The notes beneath the pieces were generated by a model. That model searched no databases. It saw only the letters and a program-made list of their open reading frames with translations, and was not told the origin of the DNA. Made by a program: the position numbers and the translations under genes. Below are positions 1 through 30,734 of a stretch of 64,000 bases of DNA, one piece after another. Each line of letters begins with the position of its first letter. Positions within the stretch are counted from its first letter, which is position 1. Source of the stretch: Roseivirga sp. E12 (GTDB taxonomy: Bacteria > Bacteroidota > Bacteroidia > Cytophagales > Cyclobacteriaceae); contig NZ_JAGFMD010000005.1 of the NCBI RefSeq assembly GCF_017592825.1, positions 62,001 through 126,000 on the forward strand, given 5' to 3'.

Positions 1-43
1 CAGTCTTCCTCTTCAAACTCCAGTGTAGCGTGTTGAATATTCG
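1..43 (-). pseudogene. 3'-end remnant of a CDF cation exporter gene
   Basis: Read on the minus strand this stretch encodes NIQHATLEFEEEDC, nearly the same as the C-terminal NIKHSTLEFEEEGEDC of the intact CDF exporter ending at 4153. A two-codon indel (GE) separates the copies. An in-frame TGA lies a few codons upstream, so there is no gene body and this is only a displaced 3' end. It continues left beyond the window. Together with the 3' end at 4153-4213 it brackets the protease block. The match is short, so its significance rests partly on the two longer examples of the same pattern in this window. Confidence 0.6.
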
Positions 44-149
44 TCCCTCACAACTTCTCTTCCTCCCTAAACCCAGCACCCAGTAGCTGCACTATTACAT
101 TTTACTTGCATAGTACTTCGCATTTATGAGGTAAAGAAAAAAATGCTCG

Positions 150-2969
150 TCAATTGACGATTAACCTACCCGTTTTAATAATTTGATTGTTGACATCAAT
201 AAGTTGATATAAGAAAAGACCAGCACCTAGACCTTCTAGGGTAAAAGAATCTGTCCCAGAATCCACCTCCAAAACTTTTACTCGATTCCCCTGGCTATCA
301 ATAAAAACCAACCACTTGGCATCGAGATTTGAGCTCAATAGGTTCAAATCCTCACCTCGAGAAAGGGGATTAGGAAATAAAGAAGTACTCGAGGGTAGTA
401 TCACAGGCAGCTCGATGCTAGAAGTAGTTGATGATTTCAATCCATCTCCAATAGATTCTAGAAGATTGATTCTAGCTCGATAAACAAAATACCCCGAATT
501 CTCATTTACATCATTAAAGCTAAAAGATGTGTTGTCAGAAAGAGTCTCGGTGTGAATTGGCAAAAAGCTCTCTCCATCCCACTTCTCAAAAGCAATACCT
601 TCAATATTAAATATTGTCGAGAGATCAAGCCCTAAACTCACGGTCGCATCGCTTACCGAAGCTGTGAAGTTATTAAAGTAACAGCCTGTGCCGTTATTAA
701 TAAAATTAAGCGCCTGTGCCTGTGAGCCCAGTAGGCCATTAATTTTTGGGATAACAGTTAGAACATCAAGGTTCCAATCCTCAGAGTTCCTGTTTAAAAA
801 AATGGAGGTATCAGAAGTAGACATCACTTCTTCCAAAACACCGGATTCATCTATTCTATATAAACCGTAAAGGTCAGCACCATCGATAGGATTCCAGCTC
901 ACTAAAAACTCGTCATCGCATAAGAACTGCATATCAATGTCAACCGATTCAGTAATTAGAAAGTCATCCGACAAGTATGAATTTGTTCCGAAGTCAACTC
1001 TGAGCTGAGTTATTCCAATAGGTAATTCCGATTCAATAAGGTGCAACGATTTATTGTCTATAGTACCAATTCTATCCCATTCACCTAAACCACTTTTTAC
1101 ATATAACAGTCCCTCTGAATCATAAGTATTCTCAAACCTGGCAATTAATGATTCATCATACTCTACAACATCCGAAGCTGTTGGAAATACCCATTCGAAC
1201 TCATCATCAAATTCAAAGAGGTAAGAAATATGATATGGTTGAGGTAGATCTGCTGAGCTCCCAGTGGCAATACTAATATCAAAAGTACCTTCCATTGGCG
1301 TTTCCACTGTAATCAGCTCAACGTTGTTAAGGGTATCAACCTTTCTTGTAGGCGCAAGAGACAACTTGCTTAAGTCAGCCGTTGGATCAAGTACCCAAGG
1401 AAACCATTGGTCACCTGAGCCTACTTCCGTCACAGTCATATTCAAGTCATTCACCAATGCTTTGAAATCACCGGGATTAGCAGCGGGATCATTCCATACC
1501 AAAGCAATTCTAACACTTTTGACCCCTGATGGCACCTCTAAAGTATGAGACTGCACCTGGCTACCTTCAATTACCCCATTCAAGATTTGTGACTTTTCGA
1601 TTACTTCAAGTGACCTCTTAGCGCTCATCAAGCCAAACCCTGACGTGTAACTGATAACAGCAGAGTCGTCCAATGGTTGAGCTCCAGCGATTAGAATTGA
1701 CTTTAACTCTGACGACAATGAGGGTTTGAAGAATAAATCTTCATAGGCCTGATTCAATAGTATCGAAGTACCGGAAACAAGAGCAGCTGCCTCAGATGTA
1801 CCACCCTTACCGTATGCAACCAGTTCTGGTTTGACTCGACCATCATAGGCTGGCCCACGCGAACTTCGAGTACTAAGAACACCAAATTCGTCTACCGAAC
1901 CGATAGTCAGAATATTCTTGGCCATTTTTAATCCACCAGTAAGGTTAGCATAAGTACCCAGTCCAGCATACTCACCATTGTCTGGTACTAGAAAGCCAGA
2001 ATTCCCTGATGAAAAGACATGCAACAATTCTGGAAGAGACTGAGCCAATTCGTCATATGCTGCAGCAACTGCATCGTACTCGTTACTGATGGCTAAACCA
2101 TAAGAATGGTTTTGAATTCTTATGTCAAACCCTGTAAAATAAGTCATTGGGTCTGGAATGACTCTCTCAAAATCAGATGATACCAACTCGCTCTGGAATG
2201 CGACACCTCTACTGAGAGCTGAGGTATTACCAGCGCCCGCAGCGATACTTGCCATGGCATTGGCATGAGAAGAAACCTCAGGGTTTTCGACATTGGACAC
2301 AACTGTCCTTGGCCAGAGATCAATATCATTCACATCAAATGACATCTCTTTCAATGCCAGTGTAATACCACTCCCTGTCAAACTTGGCCTGTAATGATGT
2401 AGCCAATTCACTCCATTTACACTTAGGTCGTGAGAAGCAATGTTAGCCTCAACCTTTGGCCCTTCTAGTTTTTGAATAAAACTCACTTCCTGCCAAGTAA
2501 GAACCTCCTGAATTAAGTCCTCGTTCATCACAACACTTATCAAACCATAAGCACTCTCTTCGACCTCCACGTTCAAAAGCTCAATGAGTTTCAAACGAGT
2601 TAATTCAGCTTGATCACTTCTAATCAAAAAAGTAGATTCACCAATGGCCTGATTCCCGCGAATTGAAGAGGATAATTTCCAATCATCTCCTACCTCATAA
2701 ACTTGATCAACTACGGATATACCCGACTGAAACCCACCTTTCACGAGGTACTCATGATCCGATATTCTTCGAAGTATCAGGGGCTTATTAATGTCAAGAA
2801 ATCTTTCCATTTCATTTCTTTTGACTTTAATCAGGTACTCCTTATTTTCAGAGATAAGTGCTCTATCGGTCAATTCTTTCTTCTTGAAAAAGCCACGTGC
2901 ACTGTTCTGTGCTCTGCCTTGAGTCGCACCCAATATGATTGACAAGACTAAGATGACTACTGACCTCAT
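150..2969 (-). CDS. T9SS-exported subtilisin-like serine protease (S8)
   Basis: This is a large secreted protease of about 939 residues. The N-terminus is a signal peptide (hydrophobic stretch ending GATQGRAQ); I start at the ATG at 2969 because it places this signal at the terminus, whereas the longer frame opens with TTG. The subtilase domain follows at about residues 190-470, with FDVNDIDL near the Asp site, SSHANAMASI at the His site, SSGNSG at the oxyanion Asn and GGTSEAAALVSG at the Ser site. Beta-rich modules follow. The last 75 or so residues (LFPNPLSRGEDLNL ... GRLIVN) are a type A T9SS sorting domain, so the product should be exported through the type IX system and attached to or released from the surface. 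The catalytic blocks are divergent: the usual DTG and HGTH are missing. Substrate is unknown. Confidence 0.88.
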   Translation of the reverse strand: MRSVVILVLSIILGATQGRAQNSARGFFKKKELTDRALISENKEYLIKVKRNEMERFLDINKPLILRRISDHEYLVKGGFQSGISVVDQVYEVGDDWKLSSSIRGNQAIGESTFLIRSDQAELTRLKLIELLNVEVEESAYGLISVVMNEDLIQEVLTWQEVSFIQKLEGPKVEANIASHDLSVNGVNWLHHYRPSLTGSGITLALKEMSFDVNDIDLWPRTVVSNVENPEVSSHANAMASIAAGAGNTSALSRGVAFQSELVSSDFERVIPDPMTYFTGFDIRIQNHSYGLAISNEYDAVAAAYDELAQSLPELLHVFSSGNSGFLVPDNGEYAGLGTYANLTGGLKMAKNILTIGSVDEFGVLSTRSSRGPAYDGRVKPELVAYGKGGTSEAAALVSGTSILLNQAYEDLFFKPSLSSELKSILIAGAQPLDDSAVISYTSGFGLMSAKRSLEVIEKSQILNGVIEGSQVQSHTLEVPSGVKSVRIALVWNDPAANPGDFKALVNDLNMTVTEVGSGDQWFPWVLDPTADLSKLSLAPTRKVDTLNNVELITVETPMEGTFDISIATGSSADLPQPYHISYLFEFDDEFEWVFPTASDVVEYDESLIARFENTYDSEGLLYVKSGLGEWDRIGTIDNKSLHLIESELPIGITQLRVDFGTNSYLSDDFLITESVDIDMQFLCDDEFLVSWNPIDGADLYGLYRIDESGVLEEVMSTSDTSIFLNRNSEDWNLDVLTVIPKINGLLGSQAQALNFINNGTGCYFNNFTASVSDATVSLGLDLSTIFNIEGIAFEKWDGESFLPIHTETLSDNTSFSFNDVNENSGYFVYRARINLLESIGDGLKSSTTSSIELPVILPSSTSLFPNPLSRGEDLNLLSSNLDAKWLVFIDSQGNRVKVLEVDSGTDSFTLEGLGAGLFLYQLIDVNNQIIKTGRLIVN

Positions 2970-3076
2970 TCCAATTAACAATTCTGGATCAAGAATAATA
3001 AAAACACAGGGATTAGGGAAGATAAAGTTTAACCCTTAACATTTATTTTCTCAAAATTTCCCAAACCGCAATATTC

Positions 3077-3133
3077 TATATGTGAAATACACATATATGA
3101 TACAATCAATTACATTTTTCTGATATATCAGAA
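3077..3133. promoter_or_regulatory. Two palindromes between divergent protease genes
   Basis: An inverted repeat TATATGTG-aaata-CACATATA lies at 3077-3097 and a perfect 16-bp palindrome TTCTGATATATCAGAA at 3118-3133. Both sit just upstream of the promoter of the M57-type protease and between two divergently transcribed genes, a normal place for operators. The AT-rich setting makes chance palindromes more likely, so the regulatory role is an inference. Confidence 0.35.
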
Positions 3134-3139
3134 TATTTT

Positions 3140-3169
3140 TTTGATAATTAAATCAAAGTTCTATTTTTG
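3140..3169 (+). promoter_or_regulatory. Bacteroidota-type promoter for the M57-type protease
   Basis: A TTTG (-33 box, 3140-3143) is followed after 18 bases by TATTTTTG (3162-3169), a full match to the Bacteroidota -7 consensus TAnnTTTG. It ends 61 bases before the ATG at 3231. Confidence 0.6.
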
Positions 3170-3230
3170 AGCGGTCTTAATCTCATTTAATCGGTTAAGA
3201 CATTTTATCAACCAACCTTAAACAATTTTT

Positions 3231-4094
3231 ATGAAAAAGTTTTTATCAATTCTCACACTCACACTTTTATCAGCAGTATTCTTTTATTCCTGTGAAGAGT
3301 CCACCACGGATCAAGCACCGGTAATCGAAGATGAAATTTCACAAGCGGTTCTAGATCAATTGACTTCGGCAGGGTATAGTACTCAGGACGTCATTACGAC
3401 CACTTGGAATGGCCAAACAGGCTATGTAGTAGAATACGATCTATTCTTTTCTGAAGAGGACATCCTCAATTTAGAAAAGAACCCTAAAGTGCCAGGTACT
3501 GAGCAGTACCACACGACTAATCTTGTTACAAATTTACCAAGGGTAATAAAAGTAGGTATTGATCCTTCTTTCAGTGCTTCTGCTGTCACAGCTTTAAATA
3601 ATACCATCGCGATGTACAATGCAGAAAACCTTGACCTTTCACTTCAATTGACTTCGGTTACAATCACTGGAAAAGGAAAAAAACAAACCATCAATACTGA
3701 TGCCGATATCTATATCTCTGCATTCAGAGAAAGACCAAGAAGAGGGTTTATCACTCTAGGTATTGCTGCCGGATTCCCAACAGCTTCAGGAGACCCAGCT
3801 GACGGCTTTGGTCTGAATACGTATTGGATTGATAACTTCGGACCTTCTGTCGATGAGATTAAAGGAGTTATGGCTCACGAGATCGGTCATACTATCGGTT
3901 TCAGACACACAGATTATCAAACACGTGAGAGCTGTGGCTCTAATCAGAATGAAGGTAGTGCAGGTGTAGGAGCAATCTATATTCCAGGCACACCAACTGG
4001 ATCAGATGTTACTTCTTTAATGCAAGCTTGTGGCCCAGCTGACAGCTTCAATGGCAATGACGTTGTTGCATTAAACTACCTATACAAAAACTGA
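3231..4094 (+). CDS. M57-type (HEIGH) zinc metalloprotease lipoprotein
   Basis: A 287-residue lipoprotein: the signal peptide ends in FFYSC, giving lipidated Cys21, so it should be anchored in the outer membrane. The catalytic motif HEIGHTIGFRH at residues 216-226 supplies three zinc-binding histidines and the catalytic Glu217, the pattern of the dual-action HEIGH metallopeptidases (Pfam Peptidase_M57). The N-terminal part before about residue 105 (charged, DQAPVIEDEIS) may act as a propeptide. The gene stands alone, divergent from the T9SS subtilase, has its own promoter and ends in a strong terminator. Both genes belong to inserted block 1, which thus looks like a small secreted-protease cassette. 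Confidence 0.85.
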   Translation: MKKFLSILTLTLLSAVFFYSCEESTTDQAPVIEDEISQAVLDQLTSAGYSTQDVITTTWNGQTGYVVEYDLFFSEEDILNLEKNPKVPGTEQYHTTNLVTNLPRVIKVGIDPSFSASAVTALNNTIAMYNAENLDLSLQLTSVTITGKGKKQTINTDADIYISAFRERPRRGFITLGIAAGFPTASGDPADGFGLNTYWIDNFGPSVDEIKGVMAHEIGHTIGFRHTDYQTRESCGSNQNEGSAGVGAIYIPGTPTGSDVTSLMQACGPADSFNGNDVVALNYLYKN

Positions 4095-4113
4095 TAGATA
4101 GTTAATCTTGATA

Positions 4114-4155
4114 GAAAGCCACCCTTCCGCTTGGAAGGATGGCTTTCTTTTTTTA
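4114..4155 (+). terminator. Intrinsic terminator after the M57-type protease
   Basis: A hairpin with 14-base arms (AAAGCCACCCTTCC / GGAAGGATGGCTTT, one mismatch) and a GCTT loop is followed by a T-run. It overlaps the stop codon of the convergent CDF exporter gene and probably serves both directions. Confidence 0.8.
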
Positions 4156-5043
4156 ACACCCCTCACAGTCTTCCCCCTCTTCTTCAAACTCCAGGGTGGA
4201 ATGTTTAATATTCAGATCGGCCAGTAGAAGTTTAGACCTAGATTTAATATCCGTCAACTCTCTAAGCGAATAGACCTTATCAAGCACTACGTGAGCCGAA
4301 AGCACATGATAGGAACCATCCATTGACCAAACATGGCAATCATGAACGTCAATAATTTCTGGAATTGATCTTAGTCCCTCTTGAATAGCCGGAATATCCA
4401 CGTCTTGCGGTGTAGTTTGAAGTATAATCGAGAAGCTCTGTTTAAGATTTTTGATCACATTGTAAATAATGAAAACGCCAATTCCAACCGAGAGTAATGG
4501 ATCAATGAATTGCCAGTCAAGATACATAATCAGGAGGCTACCCAATAACACAGCAATCCAGCCTAATACATCCTCCAATAAGTGCAAGCGAATGACTTTT
4601 TCATTCATTGACTTTCCTTCCTTCAACCTGAAAACTGCTGCACCATTTACTATCACTCCGAAAATGGCAATGATCAGCATCCCCTTCTCATCCACTTCGC
4701 CCGGGTTCATGATTTGAGGGGCCGCTTGACTGATAATAACCACGGAACCCACTAAAAGAATAGCAGCGTTGATAATGGCGCCCAAGAGTGAATAACGCTT
4801 ATAGCCATAGGTGAATTTCTCGTTACTATCCTTATTATCAGACAGGTGCTGAAAGTACCAAGACATGCCGATACTCAAACTATCACCAAAGTCATGCAAC
4901 GCATCCGAAAGAATAGCTAAACTCCCTGTGATCAAACCACCAATCACCTCGACAATCGTAAAAGAGAGGTTAAGGAAAAAAGCAACTTTTAAGTTCTTAG
5001 AACCATGCCCATGCTCAGCATTATGATGGTGATGATGCCCCAT
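4153..5043 (-). CDS. CDF family cation (zinc) exporter
   Basis: A 296-residue cation diffusion facilitator, exporting Zn2+ or similar divalent cations from the cytoplasm by proton antiport. It has a His-rich N-terminus (GHHHHHNAEHGHG), six membrane segments, the TM2 metal site SDALHDFGD and the TM5 site HLLED, followed by a cytoplasmic ferredoxin-like domain with HDCHVWSMDG. The tail is acidic and Cys-containing (EFEEEGEDCEGC). The start is an ATG only 50 bases behind the displaced symporter 3' end at 5094, which suggests the two genes were once adjacent in one operon. A copy of its own 3' end lies at 1-43. Confidence 0.92.
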   Translation of the reverse strand: MGHHHHHNAEHGHGSKNLKVAFFLNLSFTIVEVIGGLITGSLAILSDALHDFGDSLSIGMSWYFQHLSDNKDSNEKFTYGYKRYSLLGAIINAAILLVGSVVIISQAAPQIMNPGEVDEKGMLIIAIFGVIVNGAAVFRLKEGKSMNEKVIRLHLLEDVLGWIAVLLGSLLIMYLDWQFIDPLLSVGIGVFIIYNVIKNLKQSFSIILQTTPQDVDIPAIQEGLRSIPEIIDVHDCHVWSMDGSYHVLSAHVVLDKVYSLRELTDIKSRSKLLLADLNIKHSTLEFEEEGEDCEGC

Positions 5044-5070: not shown

Positions 5071-5159
5071 AATAGGGTTTCAAAAGATGGGCATTAGTCT
5101 GCTGAAGGAATTCTGATATCCTCCACCATTTCCTCTAGGGCCTCTGAACCACTAGGCAT
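5071..5159 (-). pseudogene. 3'-end remnant of the sodium/solute symporter gene
   Basis: Bases 5071-5143 match 8672-8744 with about 6 differences in 73. The match covers the last 16 codons of the symporter plus 23 bases after its stop. Read on the minus strand it still encodes EALEEMVEDIRIPSAD-stop against KAIEEMVEDIRIPSAG-stop in the intact gene; the stop is at 5094-5096. A possible ATG at 5159 would give a 21-residue peptide, but there is no reason to think it is expressed. This is a displaced gene end, left in front of the CDF gene when block 2 arrived. Confidence 0.8.
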
Positions 5160-5172
5160 GATGGGTAAATGA

Positions 5173-5811
5173 TTACTCAATTCCAGAATAAATCCCTGAA
5201 TACATCTTCAGTATTTGTTGATGACTGAATGATAGGTTTTCGATCAGTTTTTTCAATCTGTGAAGCGTATTTTTACTCAATCTTGTATCAAATGCCTCCT
5301 CGCTAACCAAAAGATTGGCAACAGCTGCTTGTTGCTGCTCAACAACTCTTTCCTGATAATTATAAAGGTCAGTCAGCTTATATAATGTCTTATAATCAAA
5401 GTAGTTTACCAGATTCGAAGTTTGCGCTGTTTCCCAGGTAGTTTCCTGCAACAATTCAACAGGCTGCTTTTGAGACACCAGTCTTTCCAACAACACGCCC
5501 TCTTCATTCACCACAGAATCAATACTAACTTCTCCCAAAAACACCTTGTCGATACCATTAACAAGAGAGTCATAGTAATCCTGCCAAAGTCGAATGACAA
5601 TGGTATTATTAATTGCCTCCAACTCCAAATTCTCGAGTACAACTTGGAGATTTTCCTTTCTCTTGCGTTCCTCATCCCAGTTACCAATCGCCAGAGCAAT
5701 CACAACTCCTAGTGTCAACAAAATAGATTGAAGTAAAAATTCGGGGAGCCTTTTTCGGAGTTTCCAAAAGACTGATATGAGCCCCCTCCACTTACTTATT
5801 TTCCTATCCAT
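5173..5811 (-). CDS. DUF6090-like membrane protein
   Basis: About 212 residues from the ATG at 5811; the frame extends three codons further to a TTG. One membrane helix near residues 25-45 (LLQSILLTLGVVIALAIGNW) is followed by EERKRKENLQ and a long helical region. This layout, a short cytoplasmic basic tail, one membrane helix ending in NW-EER and a coiled C-terminal domain, is that of the DUF6090 proteins common in Cytophagia and Flavobacteriia. Function is unknown. It is divergent from the FtsX-like permease and lies inside block 2. Confidence 0.65.
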   Translation of the reverse strand: MDRKISKWRGLISVFWKLRKRLPEFLLQSILLTLGVVIALAIGNWDEERKRKENLQVVLENLELEAINNTIVIRLWQDYYDSLVNGIDKVFLGEVSIDSVVNEEGVLLERLVSQKQPVELLQETTWETAQTSNLVNYFDYKTLYKLTDLYNYQERVVEQQQAAVANLLVSEEAFDTRLSKNTLHRLKKLIENLSFSHQQILKMYSGIYSGIE

Positions 5812-5960
5812 GCCGTTCAAATTTCATCAATGCAGGAATTAACCTCTTTACTTTGTTCAATAATAACAAAATTCAACCTCAGTCAGGTGTTCATTGGGAT
5901 ATATGACTCGTAAACAACTCAATTTTCGCAAATGAACTAAAAACACTCAAGTCTTGACAA

Positions 5961-6016
5961 CTAGGTTTCTAGGTAATAGTGTAAATTAAGGTGTAATGAA
6001 AATTAAAGTTCTAGGT
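5961..6016. promoter_or_regulatory. CTAGGT direct repeats before the FtsX-like gene
   Basis: CTAGGT occurs at 5961, 5969 and 6011; the last two sit within TTCTAGGT (5967-5974 and 6009-6016). They lie 58-113 bases before the permease ATG in the divergent intergenic region. They could bind a regulator, but none is encoded nearby and no other copies were checked. Confidence 0.25.
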
Positions 6017-6073
6017 CTTTAATTAGTATGGGCATTAAAGAACATTACTATTACCTCATTAAAACCATCCGAC

Positions 6074-8509
6074 ATGATCAAAAGCTATTTCAACACCGCA
6101 TTTAGAAACCTCACTCGCAATAAAATAAATAGTCTTATTAGCATCTTAGGTCTTAGCATAGGCATCGCCAGTTGTTTGATGGTCTACATATTTATCAGTC
6201 ACGAAATTTCGTATGACTCTTTTCATGAAAAAGCTGATAGGCTCTTTAGAGTTGAAAAACCCTACTATTCAGAAGATGGAGGTATATCAGGTATCAACAC
6301 GTCAATAGATCCTTCTGTAGGGCCTGCGCTGGCAGAGTTTTTCCCCGAAATCCAATATCAGACCCGCATACATTTATCCAGCGCTGATATGAAATATCAG
6401 AATACCGTTTTCAGAGAATCCATAACCCTAGTTGATGGTGATTTCTTAAAAATATTCTCATTCCCGCTATTTTCTGGAAACAAGGAAACCGCTCTGGAAA
6501 ATCAATACAGTATAGTTCTGACTAAAACTACTGCCAACAAGTACTTTGGAAAGAAAGATCCTATAGGAGAATCTATCCAGATGATCCAAAATGGAAAAAG
6601 ACAATCTTTTGTGGTCAGTGCCATTGCTGAAGATATGCCTGTAAACACGGACTTGGGCTTTTCCATGTTAATAGACATTCGCAACATCATTTGGATGACT
6701 GAGGATTCAAATTTTCTAGAGGAAAGGGACATCAATTCTCTTCAGGCCTATGTCTCTCTAAACAGCCCCTCGGAAAAGTCGGACATTGATAAGCGACTGG
6801 AGTCTTTTGCTTACTCTCATTACACAGGAGAGATGGAAAAAGCTCGGAAAAACCAAGGCTGGGAAAGCCAATCAATCCCCTTTGGCACCAGGCTACTCCC
6901 GATAAAGGACGTTCACTTTAGCGATACAAGTTTAAGAAGCGCCTATGACCCCAGTAGTAAGTCTAAAAAGGCACTGCAGACCCTTACTATAATTGCTATC
7001 GTCATTTTGCTGATTTCATCCTTTAACTACATCAATCTTACTATAGGAATGGCTTCTAAAAGATCCAAAGAGGTTGGCATCAGAAAGGTTATTGGTGCTC
7101 AAAAAGCCCAACTTACGGCCCAATTTTGCAGTGAAGCCATTCTTGTTTCTCTATTGGCTTTAGGAATGGGGATCTTTCTGACCTCAATTCTCATTCCCTT
7201 TTTCAATGATTTCTATGGGGTCAAATTGTCTATTGAAGGACTTCTTACAGGTAAGCACTTTATCCTTATCATATCTTTTGCATGTATCCTAGGTCTATTA
7301 GCAGGAATGTATCCAGGCCTCGTCATGTCTAATTTTCATACCCTCACTGTACTAAAAGGCAAGCTCAAAGTGGGGAAAAGAAATTTACTAACGAAAGGAC
7401 TCATGGTTATTCAATTCAGTGTGACCACTATCTTAATTGTCCTATCCATGGTCGCTACCAAGCAATTGGAACACCTTACTTCAAGAGATTTAGGGTATAG
7501 CAATGAAGGTCTCATTATTGTTCCCAGACCACGTAGTACACCTACAGCAAGTGCAGTATTCAGGAATGAAATTTCAAAGGATCCAAGCGTACTTGGTGTG
7601 GCATCATCTAACCTTAGACTTGGAACCAGCCTTAACTCGACCATTGGTGGCGATTATAGAACACACTGGACTGCCGTAGATAATAATTTTTTCAGAATGC
7701 TTAAGATAGAAATAACCAAAGGTCGCGATTTCTATACGGAGCAAAAGGAAAATAAGAAATCAGTAATTGTCAATCAAAAGCTCATTGATTTATACGGCAT
7801 TGAATCTTTTGATGAAGCAGATCTAGGTAGAATTTTTGAAGAGAGGGATGGTAGAAAGGCTCCAGAAGCATTTTATAACACCCGAATTGTTGGTGTCGTA
7901 AACGACTTTCATTTCGTAAAAGCTCAAGCAGCCTTACCTGCTTCAATATTTTTCCCCATAGAACAAAATGAAGCATATTACATGCTCATCAAATTAAAAA
8001 CAGATAAAATATCTGCAACTGTTGGTCGTCTAGAAAAAGCATGGCAAAAAATCTCCCCTGAAGAGCCCATTAATCTTCAGTTTCAAGATCAGATGTTAGA
8101 ACGGCTGTATGAGAACGAGAAAAAATGGAGTCTTTTGATGAGGTATACTTCAATCATCATCATAGTTATTACGGCCATGGGTTTGTTTGGGCTTTCCCTA
8201 ATTATGATCAGTGGTAGGATTAAAGAAATAGGCATTAGAAAAGTACTTGGCGCCAAAATTGGCCAGATAATGCTTCAAAATATAAAAGGAGTATCTGGAC
8301 TTGTTCTGATTGCCAATATTTTAGCCATACCCATGGCCTACTGGTTGGCTATGGAATTTCTCAAATCCTATTCATATCATATCGAGTTAGGTCCGAAGAT
8401 ATTTATCATTGCTGCTGTGTGTTCCATTTCGATTGCTATTTGTACTATATTTTACAATGTGTTCAAGACTGCCAACACTAATCCAGTTAATGCACTAAGA
8501 GAGGAGTAG
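6074..8509 (+). CDS. FtsX/MacB-like ABC transporter permease
   Basis: An 811-residue membrane protein with two FtsX-like halves. It opens with MIKSYFNTAFRNLTRNK and a first membrane helix (SLISILGLSIGIASCLMVYI), then a MacB periplasmic core domain (SYDSFHEKADRLFRVE ...), three membrane helices near residues 310-430 and a repeat of this plan with final helices after about residue 685. The conserved EVGIRKVIGA and EIGIRKVLGA segments mark the cytoplasmic coupling loops. This is the Bacteroidota type of putative ABC permease that is often found without a linked ATPase; none is present here. A paralogue of like size is at 52693-55092. The substrate is unknown. Confidence 0.88.
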   Translation: MIKSYFNTAFRNLTRNKINSLISILGLSIGIASCLMVYIFISHEISYDSFHEKADRLFRVEKPYYSEDGGISGINTSIDPSVGPALAEFFPEIQYQTRIHLSSADMKYQNTVFRESITLVDGDFLKIFSFPLFSGNKETALENQYSIVLTKTTANKYFGKKDPIGESIQMIQNGKRQSFVVSAIAEDMPVNTDLGFSMLIDIRNIIWMTEDSNFLEERDINSLQAYVSLNSPSEKSDIDKRLESFAYSHYTGEMEKARKNQGWESQSIPFGTRLLPIKDVHFSDTSLRSAYDPSSKSKKALQTLTIIAIVILLISSFNYINLTIGMASKRSKEVGIRKVIGAQKAQLTAQFCSEAILVSLLALGMGIFLTSILIPFFNDFYGVKLSIEGLLTGKHFILIISFACILGLLAGMYPGLVMSNFHTLTVLKGKLKVGKRNLLTKGLMVIQFSVTTILIVLSMVATKQLEHLTSRDLGYSNEGLIIVPRPRSTPTASAVFRNEISKDPSVLGVASSNLRLGTSLNSTIGGDYRTHWTAVDNNFFRMLKIEITKGRDFYTEQKENKKSVIVNQKLIDLYGIESFDEADLGRIFEERDGRKAPEAFYNTRIVGVVNDFHFVKAQAALPASIFFPIEQNEAYYMLIKLKTDKISATVGRLEKAWQKISPEEPINLQFQDQMLERLYENEKKWSLLMRYTSIIIIVITAMGLFGLSLIMISGRIKEIGIRKVLGAKIGQIMLQNIKGVSGLVLIANILAIPMAYWLAMEFLKSYSYHIELGPKIFIIAAVCSISIAICTIFYNVFKTANTNPVNALREE

Positions 8510-8694
8510 AATAATACAGGGCTTGTACTTTGTCATGGTTCCAATCTACAGTCTCCTCACATTCAATATCATAGGGAGATTTTTATTTCAACAATAGAGC
8601 TCGGGTTTAGATTTGTTACTCCAAATTCTATAAGCGCACACCTTTTCAAACACTATAAAGAACTCTTTGAAAATAGGGTTTCAAAAGATGGGCA

Positions 8695-10915: not shown

Positions 10916-11093
10916 TCATACCCTAAAAAACCAAATACTGGAGTGCCAGGATTTCAACATTAACACGATTTTCTCAGCGAGAATACGCAGATTAACTTAT
11001 TAAAGATATTTATCAATGCCGTAAGAATAATCATATGAAAAATATATCTTGAGTCAACAACAGCCATTACACCGAAACATAAGTACGGGTAGC

Positions 11094-18285: not shown

Positions 18286-18298
18286 ATTTTTGAACAAT

Positions 18299-19441: not shown

Positions 19442-19530
19442 AGGCATATGGGTATATTAGTTCAATCGGGCTATAATCATAAGTTGCTTATTTATAAGGA
19501 ATCAATTATAAGGAAGATTGGAATGGAGCA

Positions 19531-20718: not shown

Positions 20719-20821
20719 CTGAAAACCGATTGACAAAGCATCTTTTAATCAATTTATCCAGTATTAAGACAGAAGTTTAAAGCTTCAAAAGAGTATTTGA
20801 ATTAATTGTATATTGTAAGAA

Positions 20822-22716: not shown

Positions 22717-22742
22717 TTCTCCGATACAAAAGTGTTCAACTA

Positions 22743-23798: not shown

Positions 23799-23808
23799 GA
23801 AAGCCTAT

Positions 23809-24636
23809 GTGTTTTTCGGTCAAATACTTCATTCAATAAACGCCAATTTTATTTTACCACTTCAACAAACCCATTTACATGTTCCAGATATAAAAGATTA
23901 TATTGAGCAAACTATTCTGAGCAGGTTGGGCAATCGTAGATTTCATTATTCAATATTCAAATCACTGCAGCCAATACTCGGCAAGTTTTACAGGATATAT
24001 ACTTCCAAAAAGCGCATTTATAGCTACAGGGGCATCAAAGTTGTGATATATCCCGGTGTTTTTCACCCGCGATTTACCTTCAGCACCAAATTCTTTGTTG
24101 ATCACTTTCTCAATTTGAACTTAGAAGATAAGAGGGTCCTGGAATTGGGTTGTGGAAGTGGCCTCATCAGTTTTCATGCTGCAGCCAAAGGAGCTACTGT
24201 TACGGCCACCGATATCAATCCCCAAGCTCTTCATGGCATCGAAGAAAGTGCACTTATCAATCGACTCGCGGTAGAAGTCCTTCATTCTGACTTGTTTGAG
24301 AATGTGCGTCCTGAAGATTTCGATTACATTTTTATTAATCCTCCCTACTACCCCAAGAAACCAGATTCTTTAGAAGAAGAAGCATGGTATTGCGGGCAAG
24401 ACTTTGAGTACTTTAGAAAATTGTTTTCACAAATAGAGCACGTGGCGGCCACTATACTTATGATTCTCTCTGAGGACTGTCAGATCGAAAAGATAAGGTC
24501 AATATCTTCAGGGGCTGGTTTTGATCTGGTGAAAGTAGACGAAAAACGCATTTTTACAGAGTTGAATTGGATTTTTAAAATCACCCGGAACTCAAGTGCA
24601 AAAGAAGACAAACTCAGCAGTGCAAATACCCATTAA
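23809..24636 (+). CDS. Methyltransferase with NPPY motif (HemK/TrmN6-like fold)
   Basis: A 275-residue class I methyltransferase with SAM motif I LELGCGSGLISFHAAAKG, DINPQAL, and the IFINPPYYPKK motif typical of enzymes methylating planar nitrogen. The start is uncertain: GTG at 23809 is the only early start codon in frame; an overlapping ATG at 23807 is out of frame. It begins 10 bases after the GT9 stop. In other contexts NPPY proteins modify Gln, adenine or guanine; in this operon it may modify an amino-sugar nitrogen or act as a plain SAM-binding partner. Confidence 0.78.
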   Translation: MFFGQILHSINANFILPLQQTHLHVPDIKDYIEQTILSRLGNRRFHYSIFKSLQPILGKFYRIYTSKKRIYSYRGIKVVIYPGVFHPRFTFSTKFFVDHFLNLNLEDKRVLELGCGSGLISFHAAAKGATVTATDINPQALHGIEESALINRLAVEVLHSDLFENVRPEDFDYIFINPPYYPKKPDSLEEEAWYCGQDFEYFRKLFSQIEHVAATILMILSEDCQIEKIRSISSGAGFDLVKVDEKRIFTELNWIFKITRNSSAKEDKLSSANTH

Positions 24637-24669
24637 TCTAACATTCCACCTTGTTTAAAGACATTTGCC

Positions 24670-25407
24670 TTGAAGTTCATCAATCATCAGAACGCACCCA
24701 ACGGATTTGAACGACTCTACAATGAGATCAGAGGTGAGGAGGAAAGAATACTCTCTCTGGAGCAAATTCAAAAACTACCTTACACCGCCAAGGGTTTCAG
24801 ACACCATGGTGAATGGAATAAGAGAATCAGATCTACCAGTCGCTTTGAAAACTACATCACCGATAAAAAAACGCGGACCTTGCTCGATATCGGTTGTGGA
24901 AATGGTTGGCTGCTATACAAGCTCGCCAGAAAACTGCAACGTGCCGATGGTATCGAAATTAACAAACTCGAACTGGAGCAGGCTACCACGCTTTTAGCTC
25001 ATTTTGATAATGTAGAACTACACTATGGAGATATTTTTTCTATGGATCCTCAGCCTGTATACGACATTATTTTGCTCAATGCCTGTATTCAATACTTTGA
25101 CGACATAGATAGGTTAATGGGCAGGCTCAGGCAATTTCTTTCTGAAAGTGGCGAGGTTCATATACTGGATTCACCTATATACAAGGATAAAACGAGTGCC
25201 TTGGAAGCGAGCACACGTACAAAAGATTACTATGCCAGACACACTATCCCGGAAATGGCCAAATTCTATCATCATCATTGCTTTGAAGATTTTGCAAACT
25301 ACAACTACCAAATACCCTTTGACCCACGAAAAATTACTCATAGAATAAAAAGGAAATTCGTAAGCGAAAGCCCTTTCCCCTGGCTAAAAATCCAGTTATC
25401 TCGCTAA
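24670..25407 (+). CDS. Class I SAM-dependent methyltransferase
   Basis: A 245-residue methyltransferase: motif I LLDIGCGNGWLLYKLARKL, then ADGIEINKLELEQA and DIILLNACIQYFDDIDRLM, the last typical of small-molecule and sugar methyltransferases. The start is TTG at 24670, the only start in frame before the domain. The C-terminus is basic (HRIKRKF). It is the last of four methyltransferases in the block and lies 109 bases before the second pair of radical SAM genes. The target is not known. Confidence 0.82.
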   Translation: MKFINHQNAPNGFERLYNEIRGEEERILSLEQIQKLPYTAKGFRHHGEWNKRIRSTSRFENYITDKKTRTLLDIGCGNGWLLYKLARKLQRADGIEINKLELEQATTLLAHFDNVELHYGDIFSMDPQPVYDIILLNACIQYFDDIDRLMGRLRQFLSESGEVHILDSPIYKDKTSALEASTRTKDYYARHTIPEMAKFYHHHCFEDFANYNYQIPFDPRKITHRIKRKFVSESPFPWLKIQLSR

Positions 25408-25516
25408 ATATCCTGCACCATGCAGCCTTTTACAAAACAAAGCAGTATGGGCATAGTAAAAGACTGATTGACTATATTGGAAATTCTACTCTCACTAATT
25501 GACACCACCAAGTACT

Positions 25517-27028
25517 ATGGATAAAATCTTACTCTTTAATCCTCGGAGCTCTACGAATGGTCGATATAGAGTTCCTAACTCTATATTGCAAGTTGGCGCC
25601 TCGGTTCATGGTTTGTACGATTATGTTTTTGTAGATGGCAATCGTGAAGATGACCCATGGAGTACCATTGAAGACTATCTGAAAACCGGTGAGTTTAAAT
25701 ATTTCGGTTCAACCGTAATGCCGGGTCCGCAACTCAAGCAGGCAATTCCTTATACCAAAAAGATCCGAGCACTCTTTCCCGAGATTATTAACATCTGGGG
25801 AGGGTATTTTGCCTCAAATCAATACAAGGTCTGTCTTGACAGCCCTTTCGTTGATTTTGTGATCAACGGACCGGGAGACAAGGCCTTCCCGCGACTGCTA
25901 AAAGCCCTGGAACAACAGGAGGAGCCCCTGGAGCAAATCGAGAACCTGATCTTTAAAAATGATAAAGGGGAAATCATAAAAAACCGGATCGAAACACTTC
26001 TTAATCAGGATCTTCTGCCCAGGTTACCATACGAGCATCTCGATAAATTCTATAGTCTTGATCAATATTTCTTCAAAACTTTTCTTGGCAAAAAAACACT
26101 CGGCTACCACTCCAGCTTTGGCTGTCCTTTTACCTGCTCTTTCTGTGCGGTTGTCCCCATTTATAATGCCCGGTGGAAAGGCAAATCGGCTCAGGGTATT
26201 TTTGACGATATCAAAAAACTGAAAGACTCACATGGCATAGATGCGGTAGAATTCCATGACAACAACTTTTTTACCTCACGCAAAAGAGTCGTAGAGTTTG
26301 CAAACCTTATGCTCAATAAAGGCATTGAATGGTGGGGAGAAGGCCGCATTGATACACTCGATCAATACAAGGATGATGAATTAGAACTCATGAGTGAGTC
26401 TGGTTGTCGCATGATCTTTTTCGGAGCTGAGAGTGGTGATGACGACATGCTCAAGCAAATGGATAAAGGAGGTAAACAGAGTGCCGCACAGATTTTGAGC
26501 TTCGCAAAAAGGTTGAAGCAATTCAATATTGTACCTGAGTACTCTTTTGTGCTGGGTTTTCCGGGTCCGGATGAACAAACAGTGATGCGACAAATTGACA
26601 AGGACATTGCATTTATTAAAAAGGTAAAGGAAGTCAATCCTGATACAGAGATCATCATATATACCTATAGCCCGGTGCCTACTGAAGGTTCTGACCTTTA
26701 TGAACAAATAACCAAAGCAGGGTTTCAATTCCCTGAGGCACTTGAGGATTGGCTCAACCCTGCCTGGGAAAACTTCGATCTGCGGAAAAACCCGCTGACT
26801 CCATGGCTAACTCCTGCCATGGTGGATAAGATTCAGAATTTTGAAACCGTACTAAACGCCTACCACCCTACAGCCTCCGACTTTAAAGTGACCAAGGTAC
26901 AAAAACAGGTAATGCGCACCTTGTCGGCAATTCGCTATAAGTGGAACATTTTTCGATATCCTTATGAACTCAAGGCATTGCAAAAGTTTTGGCTCCAATA
27001 CCGACAACCTGAAATTGAAGGTTTTTAA
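25517..27028 (+). CDS. B12-binding-type radical SAM protein (3)
   Basis: About 503 residues from the ATG at 25517. The N-terminal domain (ILLFNPRSSTNGRYRVPN ... FVINGPGDKAFPRLLKALE) is of the cobalamin-binding type. The cluster motif is GCPFTCSFC near residues 203-211, followed by EFHDNNFFTS and FFGAESGDDDMLKQMDKG. The C-terminal region is long and aromatic-rich (DWLNPAWENFDLRKNPLTPW). It is translationally coupled to the next gene (TAATG). The N-terminal sequence differs clearly from the pair at 12903 and 15157, so this is a second subtype with likely different chemistry. Confidence 0.85.
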   Translation: MDKILLFNPRSSTNGRYRVPNSILQVGASVHGLYDYVFVDGNREDDPWSTIEDYLKTGEFKYFGSTVMPGPQLKQAIPYTKKIRALFPEIINIWGGYFASNQYKVCLDSPFVDFVINGPGDKAFPRLLKALEQQEEPLEQIENLIFKNDKGEIIKNRIETLLNQDLLPRLPYEHLDKFYSLDQYFFKTFLGKKTLGYHSSFGCPFTCSFCAVVPIYNARWKGKSAQGIFDDIKKLKDSHGIDAVEFHDNNFFTSRKRVVEFANLMLNKGIEWWGEGRIDTLDQYKDDELELMSESGCRMIFFGAESGDDDMLKQMDKGGKQSAAQILSFAKRLKQFNIVPEYSFVLGFPGPDEQTVMRQIDKDIAFIKKVKEVNPDTEIIIYTYSPVPTEGSDLYEQITKAGFQFPEALEDWLNPAWENFDLRKNPLTPWLTPAMVDKIQNFETVLNAYHPTASDFKVTKVQKQVMRTLSAIRYKWNIFRYPYELKALQKFWLQYRQPEIEGF

Positions 27029-28446
27029 TGATGAAGAAGAAGGTAGTATTATACAATCCAACAGCCGTCTTTTTTGACATGCCATTGGCCCTTTTAGCCA
27101 TTGGCTCCTGTCTAAATTTCGAGCTTTTTGAGGTAATTATTGTAGACGCAAGAGTAGACGAAAATGCTGACAATAAACTCCTGGTGGCCTGCGAGGATGC
27201 TCTGTGCCTTGGAGTGACAGCCCTTTCCGGGGCTCCTTTAAAAGATGCACTCAGGGCTACCCGGCTCGTAAAGCAGAATCACAAGGAACTCCCCGTTATT
27301 TGGGGAGGCTGGCATCCTTCGCTCTTCCCGGTAGAATTACTGGAAGAAGAACCTATCATAGATATAAGTGTTTATGGCCAGGGAGAGACTACCTTCAAAG
27401 AGCTTGTTACGGCATTGAATAATGGAGAGGGAATTGACCAGATAAACGGTATAGCCTATCGAAAAGACGGAAAAGTAGTAAAGAGACCCGCACGTTTGAT
27501 GCAGGATATGGACGAGCTGCCTGCGGTGAATTATGACCTCATAGATGTAGAAAAGTACTTTTCAGCCAAAGGCCAAAGACAATTCGACTATATTTCCTCC
27601 ACGGGCTGCTTTTTCCGTTGCACCTTCTGCGCAGACCCCTTCGTATTTAAGCGCAAATGGACAGCCATATCGCCTGAGAGAATGGGAAAAGAACTGGCCC
27701 ATTGGCACGAGAAGTTTCAGTTTACAGATCTCAACTTTCAGGATGAAACCTTCTTCACTTACAAAAACAGGAGCATCGAAATAGCCAATGAGCTAATAAA
27801 AATGGGCTCCAGGTTTAGCTGGGCCGCCACAATGCGTGCCGATCAGGGTATGAGGTTGGAAGATGAAGACTTTGTGTTCCTGAAAAATTCCGGGTTGAGA
27901 CGTGCCCTGATCGGAGTCGAATCCGGCTCACAAGAAATGATGGATTGGCTCAAAAAGGACATTAAAATTGAGCAAGTGCTTGGTTGTGCCGATCGTTGTA
28001 AAACTCATGGTATTGCCGTGATTTTTCCTTTTATCGTAGGTTTTCCGGGAGAGTCAGACAAGAGCGTTAAAGATTCCCTCAACTTCGTGAAAACTTTGAG
28101 GAAGAAGAGCCATATGTTCCAAACTCCCATTTTTTACTATAAACCCTATCCCGGATCCGAAATCACTCAAAAGGCAGTCGAAGAGGGCTATCAGCTACCC
28201 AATACCCTCGATGCTTGGTCAGATTTTGATTATGTAGATTCAAAAGGAGGGCCATGGGTGAGTGATGAAAAGTATCAGTTGATAGAGAATTTCAAGTTCT
28301 TTTCAAAACTCGCATGGAGCAAAGCCAATTTCTTTTTATTTCCACTTCAAAAACTGGCTCAATGGCGCTGCGAAAATAATTTCTACAAATTGCCCATTGA
28401 AAAGATCTTGTCTGATCGGCTCTTCATTAAGGTCGAGCTGTCATAA
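27028..28446 (+). CDS. B12-binding-type radical SAM protein (4)
   Basis: A 472-residue protein with MKKKVVLYNPTAVFFDMPLA at the start of a B12-binding-type domain, WGGWHPSLFPVELLEEEP and YGQGETTFKELV, then the radical SAM motif GCFFRCTFC near residues 194-202 and IGVESGSQEMMDWLKKD. It is the last plus-strand gene of the operon and is coupled to the previous one. The N-terminal start resembles that of the enzyme at 25517 (LLFNP / VLYNP), making these two a pair. It may work in sequence with it on one substrate. Confidence 0.85.
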   Translation: MMKKKVVLYNPTAVFFDMPLALLAIGSCLNFELFEVIIVDARVDENADNKLLVACEDALCLGVTALSGAPLKDALRATRLVKQNHKELPVIWGGWHPSLFPVELLEEEPIIDISVYGQGETTFKELVTALNNGEGIDQINGIAYRKDGKVVKRPARLMQDMDELPAVNYDLIDVEKYFSAKGQRQFDYISSTGCFFRCTFCADPFVFKRKWTAISPERMGKELAHWHEKFQFTDLNFQDETFFTYKNRSIEIANELIKMGSRFSWAATMRADQGMRLEDEDFVFLKNSGLRRALIGVESGSQEMMDWLKKDIKIEQVLGCADRCKTHGIAVIFPFIVGFPGESDKSVKDSLNFVKTLRKKSHMFQTPIFYYKPYPGSEITQKAVEEGYQLPNTLDAWSDFDYVDSKGGPWVSDEKYQLIENFKFFSKLAWSKANFFLFPLQKLAQWRCENNFYKLPIEKILSDRLFIKVELS

Positions 28447-28470
28447 CTACTTAGTGCCTTCAATATAATG

Positions 28471-28731
28471 CTAAGCCATAAACTGATCCAGCTGGTTGAC
28501 CACTACCTTTGCACCCCACATATTGAAATGGTGATCATGATAAAAGGCATTTGTAGTTTTTCGGAACGACCTAGGCAAGGTCAAAGCACAATTCCACTTT
28601 ATCATTACATATTTTCAGTAGAATATTATTGAGCTGTTTCATTACGCTGGCGAGAGTTCCTGTTGAATAGTAGATAACTTATCAGGATTGTCCTTCTGAT
28701 AACACCGATCATTTAATAGCCAACGACTCAT
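28471..28731 (-). pseudogene. Decayed SGNH hydrolase, C-terminal part
   Basis: Three pieces in different minus-strand frames read as one SGNH C-terminus: MSRWLLNDRCYQKDNP ... TIQQELS, then TLASVMKQLNNILLKICN ... ELCFDL, then PRSFRKTTNAFYHDHHFNMW ... NQLDQFMA-stop. The DHHFNMWGAK segment is SGNH block V with the catalytic Asp and His. At least two frameshifts separate the pieces and the N-terminal GDS half is absent. It lies directly behind the intact SGNH gene. It fills the 295-base gap otherwise without genes. Confidence 0.7.
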
Positions 28732-28741
28732 TCTGGATCTT

Positions 28742-29761
28742 TTAGTCAACATCTGCTTTATCCAACTTAAGATTTCTTAGAAGATACTGACCAATGGCCT
28801 CTTGACCGACAGGATTTAAATGACTGTCATTGTGGAAATACAGGTTACCAACCTGACTTTCCATTTCCTGCAAAAAAGAAATAGGGTTTAAAACAGTTAC
28901 TCTTTGATCATTTTTAAAATGTTTTATAAAACGATCACACAATGGATAACTAGTACTTCCTGATTCAAAGTCATTTGAGAATAATGCACCTAATTGCTTG
29001 GTTCTATTATAATACCGCTTGTTTACCTGTGAGCAGTGTGGAATCATCAGAAGGAAAATTTGGGTGTCATCGGTAGCGTAATCAAAAAGCTTCTGAATTC
29101 GATCCAAATAAGGCCTAAGGTCATTTTCCCTCCCTCCTTTAAGATAAGCTGTATTTTCCACCAATCCCGGCTCTGACTTGAAATAATATTTATCCCTCAT
29201 TGAATACTGGTCAGGATTAAAAGGGCTTTCAGCATATTTCACGGTACTGTCCCTTTTAATTGTAGCCCCGAAAGTGCTCAATTGATGATTTAAATAACCC
29301 AAAGACCAAATATGTTCAGAAAGTTTCCAGTAGACATTCCTAGCAGCAGACAGTTCTTCCCAATTGAGTTGATGTCGCCACCCGAGGAAGTCATTTCCCA
29401 CATAAAATTGAAAAACGATTACATCGGGTTGCTCCCTCTTAATATGATACCTTCCAAAAAGGAATTGCTCGATAATTGAAGTACCCGGTACGCTAATGTT
29501 ACGCACTCTGTAATGAGGTAGGGTGTCATGTAACGTTTGTGGATAGCCACCTTTAAAAGCCGAAAAAGAATCTCCAACAATCAACAAAGTTGGTTTATCC
29601 ATTCTACTCTCCATTTGATTATTCAAGGAATCAAACGTATCAGCATAAAAGTCAATGACATAAATACGAAAACACAGCTCGAAGAGCAGCAAAGAAAGAA
29701 GTCCAACAATCAAAACCTGACCTGTAAACCTATATAGCTTTTTGAATACTGACTGTTTCAT
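28742..29761 (-). CDS. SGNH hydrolase-like acyl-modifying protein, membrane anchored
   Basis: A 339-residue protein with an N-terminal membrane helix (GQVLIVGLLSLLLFELCFRI), block I LLIVGDSFSAFKGG with the nucleophile Ser, FYVGNDFLGW as block III with Asn, and HNDSHLNPVGQEAIGQYL as block V with Asp and His. The domain should face the periplasm. It begins 6 bases after the stop of the DUF5989 gene, so the two form an operon. A DUF5989 - SGNH pair next to a carbamoyltransferase is common in other bacteria; no carbamoyltransferase is present here. It may acylate or deacylate the glycan. Confidence 0.82.
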   Translation of the reverse strand: MKQSVFKKLYRFTGQVLIVGLLSLLLFELCFRIYVIDFYADTFDSLNNQMESRMDKPTLLIVGDSFSAFKGGYPQTLHDTLPHYRVRNISVPGTSIIEQFLFGRYHIKREQPDVIVFQFYVGNDFLGWRHQLNWEELSAARNVYWKLSEHIWSLGYLNHQLSTFGATIKRDSTVKYAESPFNPDQYSMRDKYYFKSEPGLVENTAYLKGGRENDLRPYLDRIQKLFDYATDDTQIFLLMIPHCSQVNKRYYNRTKQLGALFSNDFESGSTSYPLCDRFIKHFKNDQRVTVLNPISFLQEMESQVGNLYFHNDSHLNPVGQEAIGQYLLRNLKLDKADVD

Positions 29762-29767
29762 CAGTAT

Positions 29768-29905
29768 CTAAAACAGAGAGTATATAAATGGTGATAAAGC
29801 AGACCCCCCGCCAAAAACAATTAAGAAGCCAAGTAGCAGCAGCACAATAACAATCGGCATCAACCAATACTTTTTTCGTTGCATTAAAAATTTAAAAATC
29901 TCCAT
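29768..29905 (-). CDS. DUF5989 family membrane micro-protein
   Basis: A 45-residue protein starting MEIFKFLMQRKKYWLMP, with one membrane helix (IVIVLLLLGFLIVF) and the tail GGGSALSPFIYSLF. This matches the DUF5989 pattern: basic RKK-W start, a single helix and a conserved SALxPFIYxLF end. It is upstream of and nearly contiguous with the SGNH gene. In other genomes DUF5989 proteins accompany carbamoyltransferase and SGNH genes; the role is unknown, perhaps anchoring or recruiting the partner enzyme. Confidence 0.8.
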   Translation of the reverse strand: MEIFKFLMQRKKYWLMPIVIVLLLLGFLIVFGGGSALSPFIYSLF

Positions 29906-29987
29906 GGGTTAGTGGTTAAGGGCTTCCAGGTTGATACAGCTACTCCGTTCAATAAGAATATCAAATAAACGATTTCGATGTTAAAAC

Positions 29988-30734
29988 TCAAATCGCTAAC
30001 TGCGCCAACACAGCAGCCAATGCACCTAGAATAGAAATTGAGAAGCGTTTCCAATTGAGCTTATGGTGTGGGTCCGTCTCGATGAAGATTGTTGTAGATA
30101 TCTGTAGAAACCCACCAGCAACAACCGCAAAGAAAATAATCAAGTATCGCTCTGGTAGCACATCAGAATGCCCGAAGAACTCAGAGAATATCAAGCCTAA
30201 TGGAGAAGCCAAGGCAAAAGTCAGCATCAAAAGAATAGCTCTCTTCTTATTCTTCATCTGACTTACTAAAAGCGCCATTAGTGCGAAAGCAGCAGGTATC
30301 TTATGCATCACAATTCCCAAAAGAATTTTTGGCGAACTGCCATGACTATAAACTGAATCAGGAGTGTGATTTGAGTGTATAGCATCCGTCATAATGCTTC
30401 CTTCTAGAAATGAGTGTAATCCTAGGGCGATTAACAGATAGGGTACAGAGTAGGCCCCATGCGCATGAACATGCCCATGCTCCACTCCATTGGAAAAGTT
30501 TTCTAGTACCTTTTGAACAAAGAAGCCAATAAGAATGTATAGGCCCAACATAAATGGGTCTTCACCACTCAGAAACAAATCCGGAATCAAGTGGATTACG
30601 GTCATCGAGAAGAGATACGCCCCGGCAAACACCAAAAAGTAACCAAGTTTTTCTGGCTTTACAGATTCCCTGCTTAGCATCAGTGCCCCTGGAATGGCTA
30701 CACTTAGAAATAATATAATGGCATTGATGATCAT
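29988..30734 (-). CDS. ZIP family metal transporter
   Basis: About 248 residues from the ATG at 30734; a TTG eight codons upstream is less likely. Eight membrane segments, a His-rich cytoplasmic loop (HGHVHAHG) between TM3 and TM4, and the TM4/TM5 metal site HSFLEGS and HKIPAAFAL identify a ZIP importer of Zn2+ or related ions. It follows the ApbE gene on the same strand. The last 30 or so codons are duplicated at 10828-10915, and the whole 19-kb block lies between the copies. The intact 3' end may thus have come with the insert. Confidence 0.9.
   Translation of the reverse strand: MIINAIILFLSVAIPGALMLSRESVKPEKLGYFLVFAGAYLFSMTVIHLIPDLFLSGEDPFMLGLYILIGFFVQKVLENFSNGVEHGHVHAHGAYSVPYLLIALGLHSFLEGSIMTDAIHSNHTPDSVYSHGSSPKILLGIVMHKIPAAFALMALLVSQMKNKKRAILLMLTFALASPLGLIFSEFFGHSDVLPERYLIIFFAVVAGGFLQISTTIFIETDPHHKLNWKRFSISILGALAAVLAQLAI

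Follow-up and report, generated by a model that had tools for sequence, protein, structure and literature searches.

Diverged copies of gene 3' ends beside cargo blocks at a hypervariable Roseivirga locus: candidate scars of one-sided homologous capture

How three neighbouring blocks of unrelated genes came to lie behind three ordinary transporter genes, each followed on its far side by a second copy of the last codons of the gene ahead of it, is the question raised by a locus of Roseivirga sp. E12. The locus lies in a stretch of 64,000 nucleotides, here called the window (positions 62001-126000 of contig C31 in the 4.70 Mb assembly, G000:C31:62001-126000). The genes concerned encode a ZIP zinc transporter, a sodium:solute symporter (SSS) and a CDF cation efflux transporter; the displaced copies lie 19.2, 3.6 and 4.2 kb from the intact ends, past blocks referred to as A, B and C (Table 1). 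The two ends of each gene look like two alleles, the short copies (remnants, or stubs) being the ends of second, once functional alleles, and the remnants are read, with moderate confidence, as scars left at a hypervariable locus when DNA of other Roseivirga-like chromosomes was captured through homology on one side only. Comparisons were made with 18 other Roseivirga genomes, designated by G numbers, of which G009 is incomplete.

A direct-repeat search of window positions 1-34000 (seed 12, length of at least 30 nt) returned exactly three families, namely the ends of the ZIP, SSS and CDF genes, and for positions 30000-64000 none of at least 40 nt was returned. The ZIP repeat (10830-10911 and 29990-30071) spans 82 nt at 88% identity; the first-pass annotation had put the difference between the copies at about 3%, a figure that holds for the inner 63 nt (97% identical) but not for the full length. 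The SSS repeat (5071-5146 and 8672-8747; 76 nt, 91% identical) comprises a stub of about 18 codons and 23 nt beyond the stop. The CDF repeat is 83% identical within the window (7-42 and 4178-4213); its full remnant crosses the window edge (C31:61982-62042) and aligns at 79% over 67 columns, covering about 19 codons with an in-frame gap of 6 nt. tBLASTn places the remnants in the reading frame of the gene ends (E 4e-10, 9e-5 and 1e-5). Seventeen other Roseivirga genomes have a single ZIP match each, the incomplete G009 has none, and a second match, the remnant, occurs only in E12; likewise, the C-terminal ends of ZIP, SSS and CDF occur once each per relative locus set with a match (E 0.001) and twice only in E12. 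This single occurrence in relatives argues that the duplications in E12, which had been claimed from the letters alone, are not due to chance.

Duplicated gene ends are found elsewhere in the genus as well. A scan of 2.35 Mb (1,261,569 bases from E12, 400,000 from G006 and 691,102 from other loci) for repeats of 40-400 nt with at least 78% identity and a spacing of 0.5-60 kb, in which one copy lies at an open reading frame (ORF) and its partner is noncoding, yielded eight gene-3'-end, two gene-5'-end and one internal pair; a hit at C31:268827 lies outside these criteria, with just 12% of the repeat inside the ORF. One 3' pair near 148 kb in G006 was dropped before the divergence counts as a member of an intergenic repeat family, leaving seven 3' cases; that family (G006:C1 148350-149931) is G+C-rich and has recurring short peptides. 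The seven cases, with repeats of 43-243 bp, are the window trio and one each in contig C11 of E12, G006, G008 and G002, so that the search for further gene-end duplications bordering cargo, proposed in the first-pass annotation, added four. The G008 case shows the locus in a further species with a different gene end, that of nrdA, in use. A relaxed scan gave ten gene-3'-end, two gene-5'-end and two internal pairs with a noncoding partner; its two extra 3' hits are in G012 (98%, 561 bp) and at C11:13776 of E12, the latter a weak gene-end repeat (G000:C11 13776-16767; 72%, 100 bp) with copies 2.9 kb apart.

The differences between copies are concentrated at silent sites. In the window trio 13 of 38.3 silent sites differ versus 9 of 135.7 replacement sites (proportions pS 0.34 and pN 0.066; pN/pS 0.20); over all seven cases the counts are 53 of 126.5 and 59 of 494.5 (pS 0.42, pN 0.12, pN/pS 0.29). 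Such counts fit a neutrally decaying copy poorly, with P 0.014 for the trio at an assumed dN/dS of 0.1 and P 0.0004 for the seven cases at the same value (0.001 at 0.05; 0.00008 at 0.2). Divergence dominated by silent sites suggests that both copies changed mostly as working genes, and the earlier proposal that the copies are alleles of different origin is upheld by this excess.

Which of the two alleles is foreign could be addressed in two of the cases. For the 151-aa gene of G006, the intact copy matches E12 at 201 of 240 positions and the remnant at 177 of 240, the two copies matching each other at 185 of 240; for the crp-like gene of G002, where just 12 codons are compared, the intact copy matches G001 at 35 of 36 positions, the remnant at 32 of 36, and the two each other at 33 of 36. 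In both, the intact gene looks vertically inherited and the stub a stranger, the opposite of the assignment in the first-pass annotation. That assignment, by which the intact 3' ends derive from donors, is further weakened by the lack of any identity jump at intact gene ends in windows of 100-150 nt, which are too coarse to resolve a donor tract. The compared species are farther from both copies of the trio than the copies are from each other (pS of 0.62-0.98 versus 0.30 for ZIP, 0.55-0.94 versus 0.33 for SSS and 0.57-0.92 versus 0.44 for CDF), so that in the trio either copy may be the foreign one. The ZIP copies have 10 differences in 81 nt yet share an identical run of 55 nt with diverged flanks on both sides, an arrangement matched by 8 of 200000 random placements; this is the pattern that a single reciprocal crossover between two alleles would leave.

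The same locus in relatives shows what the blocks were inserted into. The nearest genome compared by RuvB, nrdA, ApbE, ZIP and CDF is G006 (RuvB 98.8%, nrdA 97.5%, ZIP 90%), with G009 equally near in nrdA at 97%; G006 carries ApbE-ZIP-CDF-nrdA in succession, without blocks A, B or C or the DUF4212-SSS pair, and has only distant SSS matches. In G010 the order is ZIP, a 158-aa ORF, DUF4212, SSS and CDF, with SSS directly before CDF. These block-free arrangements agree with the claim that the blocks were inserted between once-contiguous neighbours; as to the particular neighbours proposed as ancestral, SSS and CDF do adjoin in G010, but ZIP and DUF4212 are split there by the 158-aa ORF and G006 has ZIP-CDF-nrdA. 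The SSS end provides further detail: intact SSS is followed by TAATGCCCATCTTTT and then by 11 nt that match the beginning of the CDF leader, all ahead of block B; these 11 are the last of the 23 duplicated nucleotides past the stop, and the remnant runs into the CDF leader itself, a leader that also precedes CDF in G006 and G010. As the beginning of this leader is present in both SSS copies, both derive from an SSS-CDF arrangement, and that junction is older than block B; among the loci compared, block B was not seen behind SSS in any relative.

Cargo at this site is found in other relatives too. In G016, DUF4212 and ZIP lie 29 kb apart, the space in between containing relatives of many block A genes, and the M57-S8 gene pair of block C follows CDF; G013, G005 and G004 have related clusters within the ZIP-CDF interval, and G002 and G001 have identical crp-like proteins with different cargo between crp and CDF. 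The interval ApbE-ZIP...CDF...nrdA is thus a hypervariable exchange hot spot of the genus, and three successive events at such a site need no special device; the idea of an acquisition mode used three times in a row stands as regards the three duplications, but these are better viewed as the product of one often-exchanged locus. The phylogeny of block A disagrees with that of its flanks, and a horizontal origin is indicated: concatenated block A proteins group E12 with G013 and reject E12 with G016 (approximately unbiased (AU) test, p 0.0006, 0.0009 and 0.0013 for five, seven and nine proteins; the five were picked after identities had been seen, and the larger sets agreed), whereas the flank RuvB-ApbE-ZIP groups E12 with G006 and rejects E12 with G013 (AU p 4e-10).

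The two sides of block C differ in how widely they are shared. The M57-S8 pair lies behind CDF also in G011, across a contig break, and the CDF end, its stop and the convergent M57 end align among E12, G016 and G011; judged from this alignment the CDF-stop-M57 junction is old, and its presence in all three fits a homologous anchor in CDF. No stub-side junction was found in any relative examined. At the remnant borders, which were set by hand, there are 0 bases of identity between block and intact gene in three of three cases, a comparison made within the E12 sequence. On the ZIP side, an SGNH-like gene follows ZIP in the same orientation at less than 250 bp in E12 and G013 and about 2.4 kb off in G016 and G004; the ZIP-SGNH-like intergenic sequence gives no alignment between genomes, so that an old junction is indicated for CDF but not for the ZIP side of block A.

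Under the capture favoured here, a donor fragment matching the recipient only at a gene 3' end would enter by homologous crossover there, and its other end would be joined without homology. In the simplest form, a single crossover of the chromosome with a donor fragment closed on itself would leave a complete gene, then cargo, then the truncated end of the second allele; a mirror event, in which a cargo-free donor anchored on the far flank recombines on one side, would give the same picture. Selection would retain the 3'-end events, since the gene presumably stays whole with its promoter in place. A circular or rejoined intermediate, RecA, a transfer route and selection are all presumed parts of this scheme.

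Several observations weigh against such capture or qualify its support. Searches found ComEC (PF03772) in all 18 other genomes of the genus, including G006 and every incomplete assembly such as G009, but not in the E12 assembly, possibly because the assembly has a gap there or because DNA uptake has really been lost; natural transformation of E12 itself is unsupported. DprA was found. No donor strain was found among the genomes searched. G016 has block A-type genes and block C yet one ZIP end and one CDF end, so exchange need not leave a remnant behind. The surplus of 3' pairs relative to 5' pairs is suggestive only: neither 8:2 (P 0.11) nor 7:2 (P 0.18) is significant. The 55-nt ZIP core could instead reflect later gene conversion, and the lack of an identity jump in intact gene ends counts here as well. 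The P values against neutral decay assume neutral silent sites in the intact copy and come from five edge-trimmed cases with the C11 and G008 rows untrimmed; some stubs have decayed, with a premature stop in C11 and an indel in G002. Single-gene trees of block A are mixed: E12 groups with G013 in rSAM1, rSAM2 and rSAM3 (bootstrap 85, 84 and 100), and GT2, nt and MT1 give other, weaker groupings (56, 45 and 75). The identity of GT2 is higher to G016 than to G013 (62.1 versus 59.0%), which runs counter to the grouping of E12 with G013, and a ten-protein set including rSAM4 placed E12 with G004, though E12 with G016 was still rejected; the matches to rSAM4 from G016, G013 and G005 probably represent paralogues.

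The scheme drawn in the first-pass annotation, homology-facilitated illegitimate recombination (HFIR), has a linear cargo-bearing donor anchored in the transporter and its far end joined inside the recipient's own 3' end, so that the remnant would be the recipient allele and the intact 3' end the donor allele. It was right in kind, as acquisition by one-sided homology, but the donor origin of the intact ends is not borne out; in the form drawn it is considered unlikely. A CDF-M57 junction that is old and common to relatives, with a remnant side seen only in E12, is in its favour, and the CDF remnant is slightly nearer to G006, a genome without block C (pS 0.57 versus 0.79; TGA stop in both). 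However, the remnants in G006 and G002 are the outliers and the intact copies the nearer to a sister genome, on either side of the ZIP core the remnant and the intact copy diverge, and just 4 of 60 E. coli clones were ascribed to HFIR, with deletions, in a conjugation study (PMC3240628). More doubtful still is an insertion that copies 43-243 bp of its target to both sides, with one copy decaying afterwards. Insertion with long target duplication was reportedly described by Nobusato et al. in 2000. The anatomy, a block between long direct repeats, is that of Helicobacter pylori restriction-modification genes as mentioned in two papers citing such duplication (PMC1643837, PMC3031569), the SSS repeat extends across a gene boundary, as expected of a true target duplication, and one premature stop and one indel occur among the seven remnants. 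The copies nevertheless diverge as two alleles rather than as gene and decaying duplicate: the mainly silent differences (P 0.0004 for the seven cases, 0.014 for the trio) disfavour decay, the G006 remnant is more diverged than the G006-E12 split, and the ZIP differences are unevenly spread.

An undescribed site-specific element targeting gene 3' ends, with its recombinase lost or unlinked, had also been suggested, and appears highly improbable. A restored gene with a displaced end is the classic att geometry, and several cases lie at one locus. Against this, the absence of integrase, transposase and tRNA noted at the outset is confirmed, in that no recombinase or transposase family is seen among the 20 main block ORFs (Pfam, E 1e-5), three of which (5173-5820, 11963-12910 and 28742-29761) have no Pfam match at all, and ARAGORN finds no tRNA in the window. 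The three duplicated segments share no k-mer longer than 5, a length that 600 of 1000 shuffles equal; furthermore, the cargos are unrelated, the repeats vary from 43 to 243 bp and cases lie elsewhere in the genomes too, so that the suggestion is not sustained. Equally hard to credit is the view that the remnants are ends of decayed full-length extra gene copies; the coding-type divergence between copies would suit it, but no second ZIP gene occurs in the genus genomes searched, there is no second CDF match at E 1e-20, and each of three genes at a single locus would have to have had a paralogue that was cut close to its end and lost. There is, finally, a small chance that the gene-end pairs act as integrase-free mobile cassettes, in which recombination between intact end and remnant would release a cargo circle bearing a housekeeping-gene end; to the same slight degree it is conceivable that this circle then finds the corresponding gene in any relative and enters it by a single crossover. 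If so, ordinary gene 3' ends would be genus-wide addresses for cargo exchange, driven by host recombination.

One-sided homologous capture has precedents. Among 60 E. coli clones obtained by conjugation with homology on one side only, 56 yielded the PCR product that indicates partial duplication of the end of the homologous gene, and 14 of those duplications, sequenced, measured 109-950 bp; the authors infer partial loss of homology, re-closure and a single crossover, the remaining 4 of 60 being HFIR with deletions (PMC3240628). Foreign DNA flanked by a gene-end duplicate is common to those products and the present ones, with 43-243 bp here; there, however, an engineered plasmid and a selected lac locus were used, whereas the alleles here are diverged, the setting is natural and the cargo reaches 19 kb. 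For rhs genes, sequential 3'-end displacement through circular intermediates has been proposed (PMC2935791): there too, 3' ends are moved downstream one after another behind a gene that stays intact, and a circle entering by a single crossover was proposed, but rhs tips are exchangeable C-termini, whereas the genes here are ordinary transporters with hardly altered products and unrelated cargo. HFIR has been proposed for effector-immunity modules of the Vibrio cholerae type VI secretion system (PMC5361080), in which a foreign module also lies behind an anchor, the old end is moved downstream and events are sequential at one locus; there immunity genes are retained, unlike the short stubs without evident function here. 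Homology-assisted illegitimate recombination was also invoked for variable segments in three species (PMC2884548). Literature searches on HFIR, long target duplication, gene-fragment islands, circular intermediates, Bacteroidota hotspots with comEC and Roseivirga showed nothing closer than the cited papers among the matches listed. The mechanism is known; its repeated use at ordinary gene ends in this genus is unusual, as is the setting of transporter and housekeeping gene ends with multi-gene cargo in several species of one genus.

Table 1. Features of the window and further gene-end duplications in the genus
Feature	Position	Strand	Basis and remarks
CDF 3'-end remnant	1..42, extending beyond the window to C31:61982	-	repeat, tBLASTn; next are a 95-aa ORF and nrdA
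Block C	43..4146	mixed	Pfam; S8 subtilase 150-2981 (-), M57 metallopeptidase 3231-4094 (+)
CDF cation efflux transporter, intact	4153..5043	-	Pfam Cation_efflux E 9.7e-42; 3' end (4147-4213) duplicated
SSS 3'-end remnant with 3' flank, into CDF leader	5071..5146	-	repeat, tBLASTn
Block B	5147..8671	mixed	Pfam; 215-aa protein without Pfam match 5173-5820 (-), MacB/FtsX-type permease 6074-8509 (+)
SSS, intact	8695..10455	-	Pfam SSF E 3e-55
DUF4212 gene	10456..10719	-	Pfam PF13937 E 3.8e-36
ZIP 3'-end remnant, between block A and DUF4212	10828..10915	-	repeat, tBLASTn; 27 codons and stop, open
Block A, surface-polysaccharide-type cluster	10916..29987	mixed	Pfam; 16 main ORFs; partly common to the same site in G016, G013, G005 and G004
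ZIP zinc transporter, intact	29988..30758	-	Pfam Zip E 9.8e-16; last ~82 nt (29990-30071) duplicated
DUF6058 gene end, E12	C11		140 nt; copies 9.7 kb apart
151-aa gene end, G006			243 nt; between copies: TolB-like, SRPBCC-like and HxlR-like genes (by eye)
nrdA end with terminator-like sequence, G008 (L072)	G008:C9 1201497-1202592		93 nt; between copies: 213-aa ORF without Pfam match
crp-like gene end, G002 (L067)	G002:C5 13475-14165		43 nt; the interval up to CDF contains a likely toxin-antitoxin pair of RelE type (by eye)

By Pfam, block A contains GT2, four radical SAM genes, methyltransferases, an ABC exporter, GDSL, a sulfotransferase, a group 1 glycosyltransferase (GT) and GT9; Pfam gives no match for the ORFs at 11963-12910 and 28742-29761, of which the second is SGNH-like by eye. 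Three of the four radical SAM genes in the cluster at 11049-29761 have B12-binding matches, one of them below the Pfam cut-off. Four other Roseivirga genomes carry clusters akin to this one at the corresponding site, with differing middle genes.

Many genomic islands are without a recombinase, and their route of entry is usually left open. Diverged gene-end stubs such as those described here provide a scar from which the anchor gene, the far border and the second allele can be read off; if such stubs are common, one-sided capture would become countable genome by genome. In Roseivirga sp. E12 the stubs mark a locus exchanging a surface-polysaccharide-type cluster.

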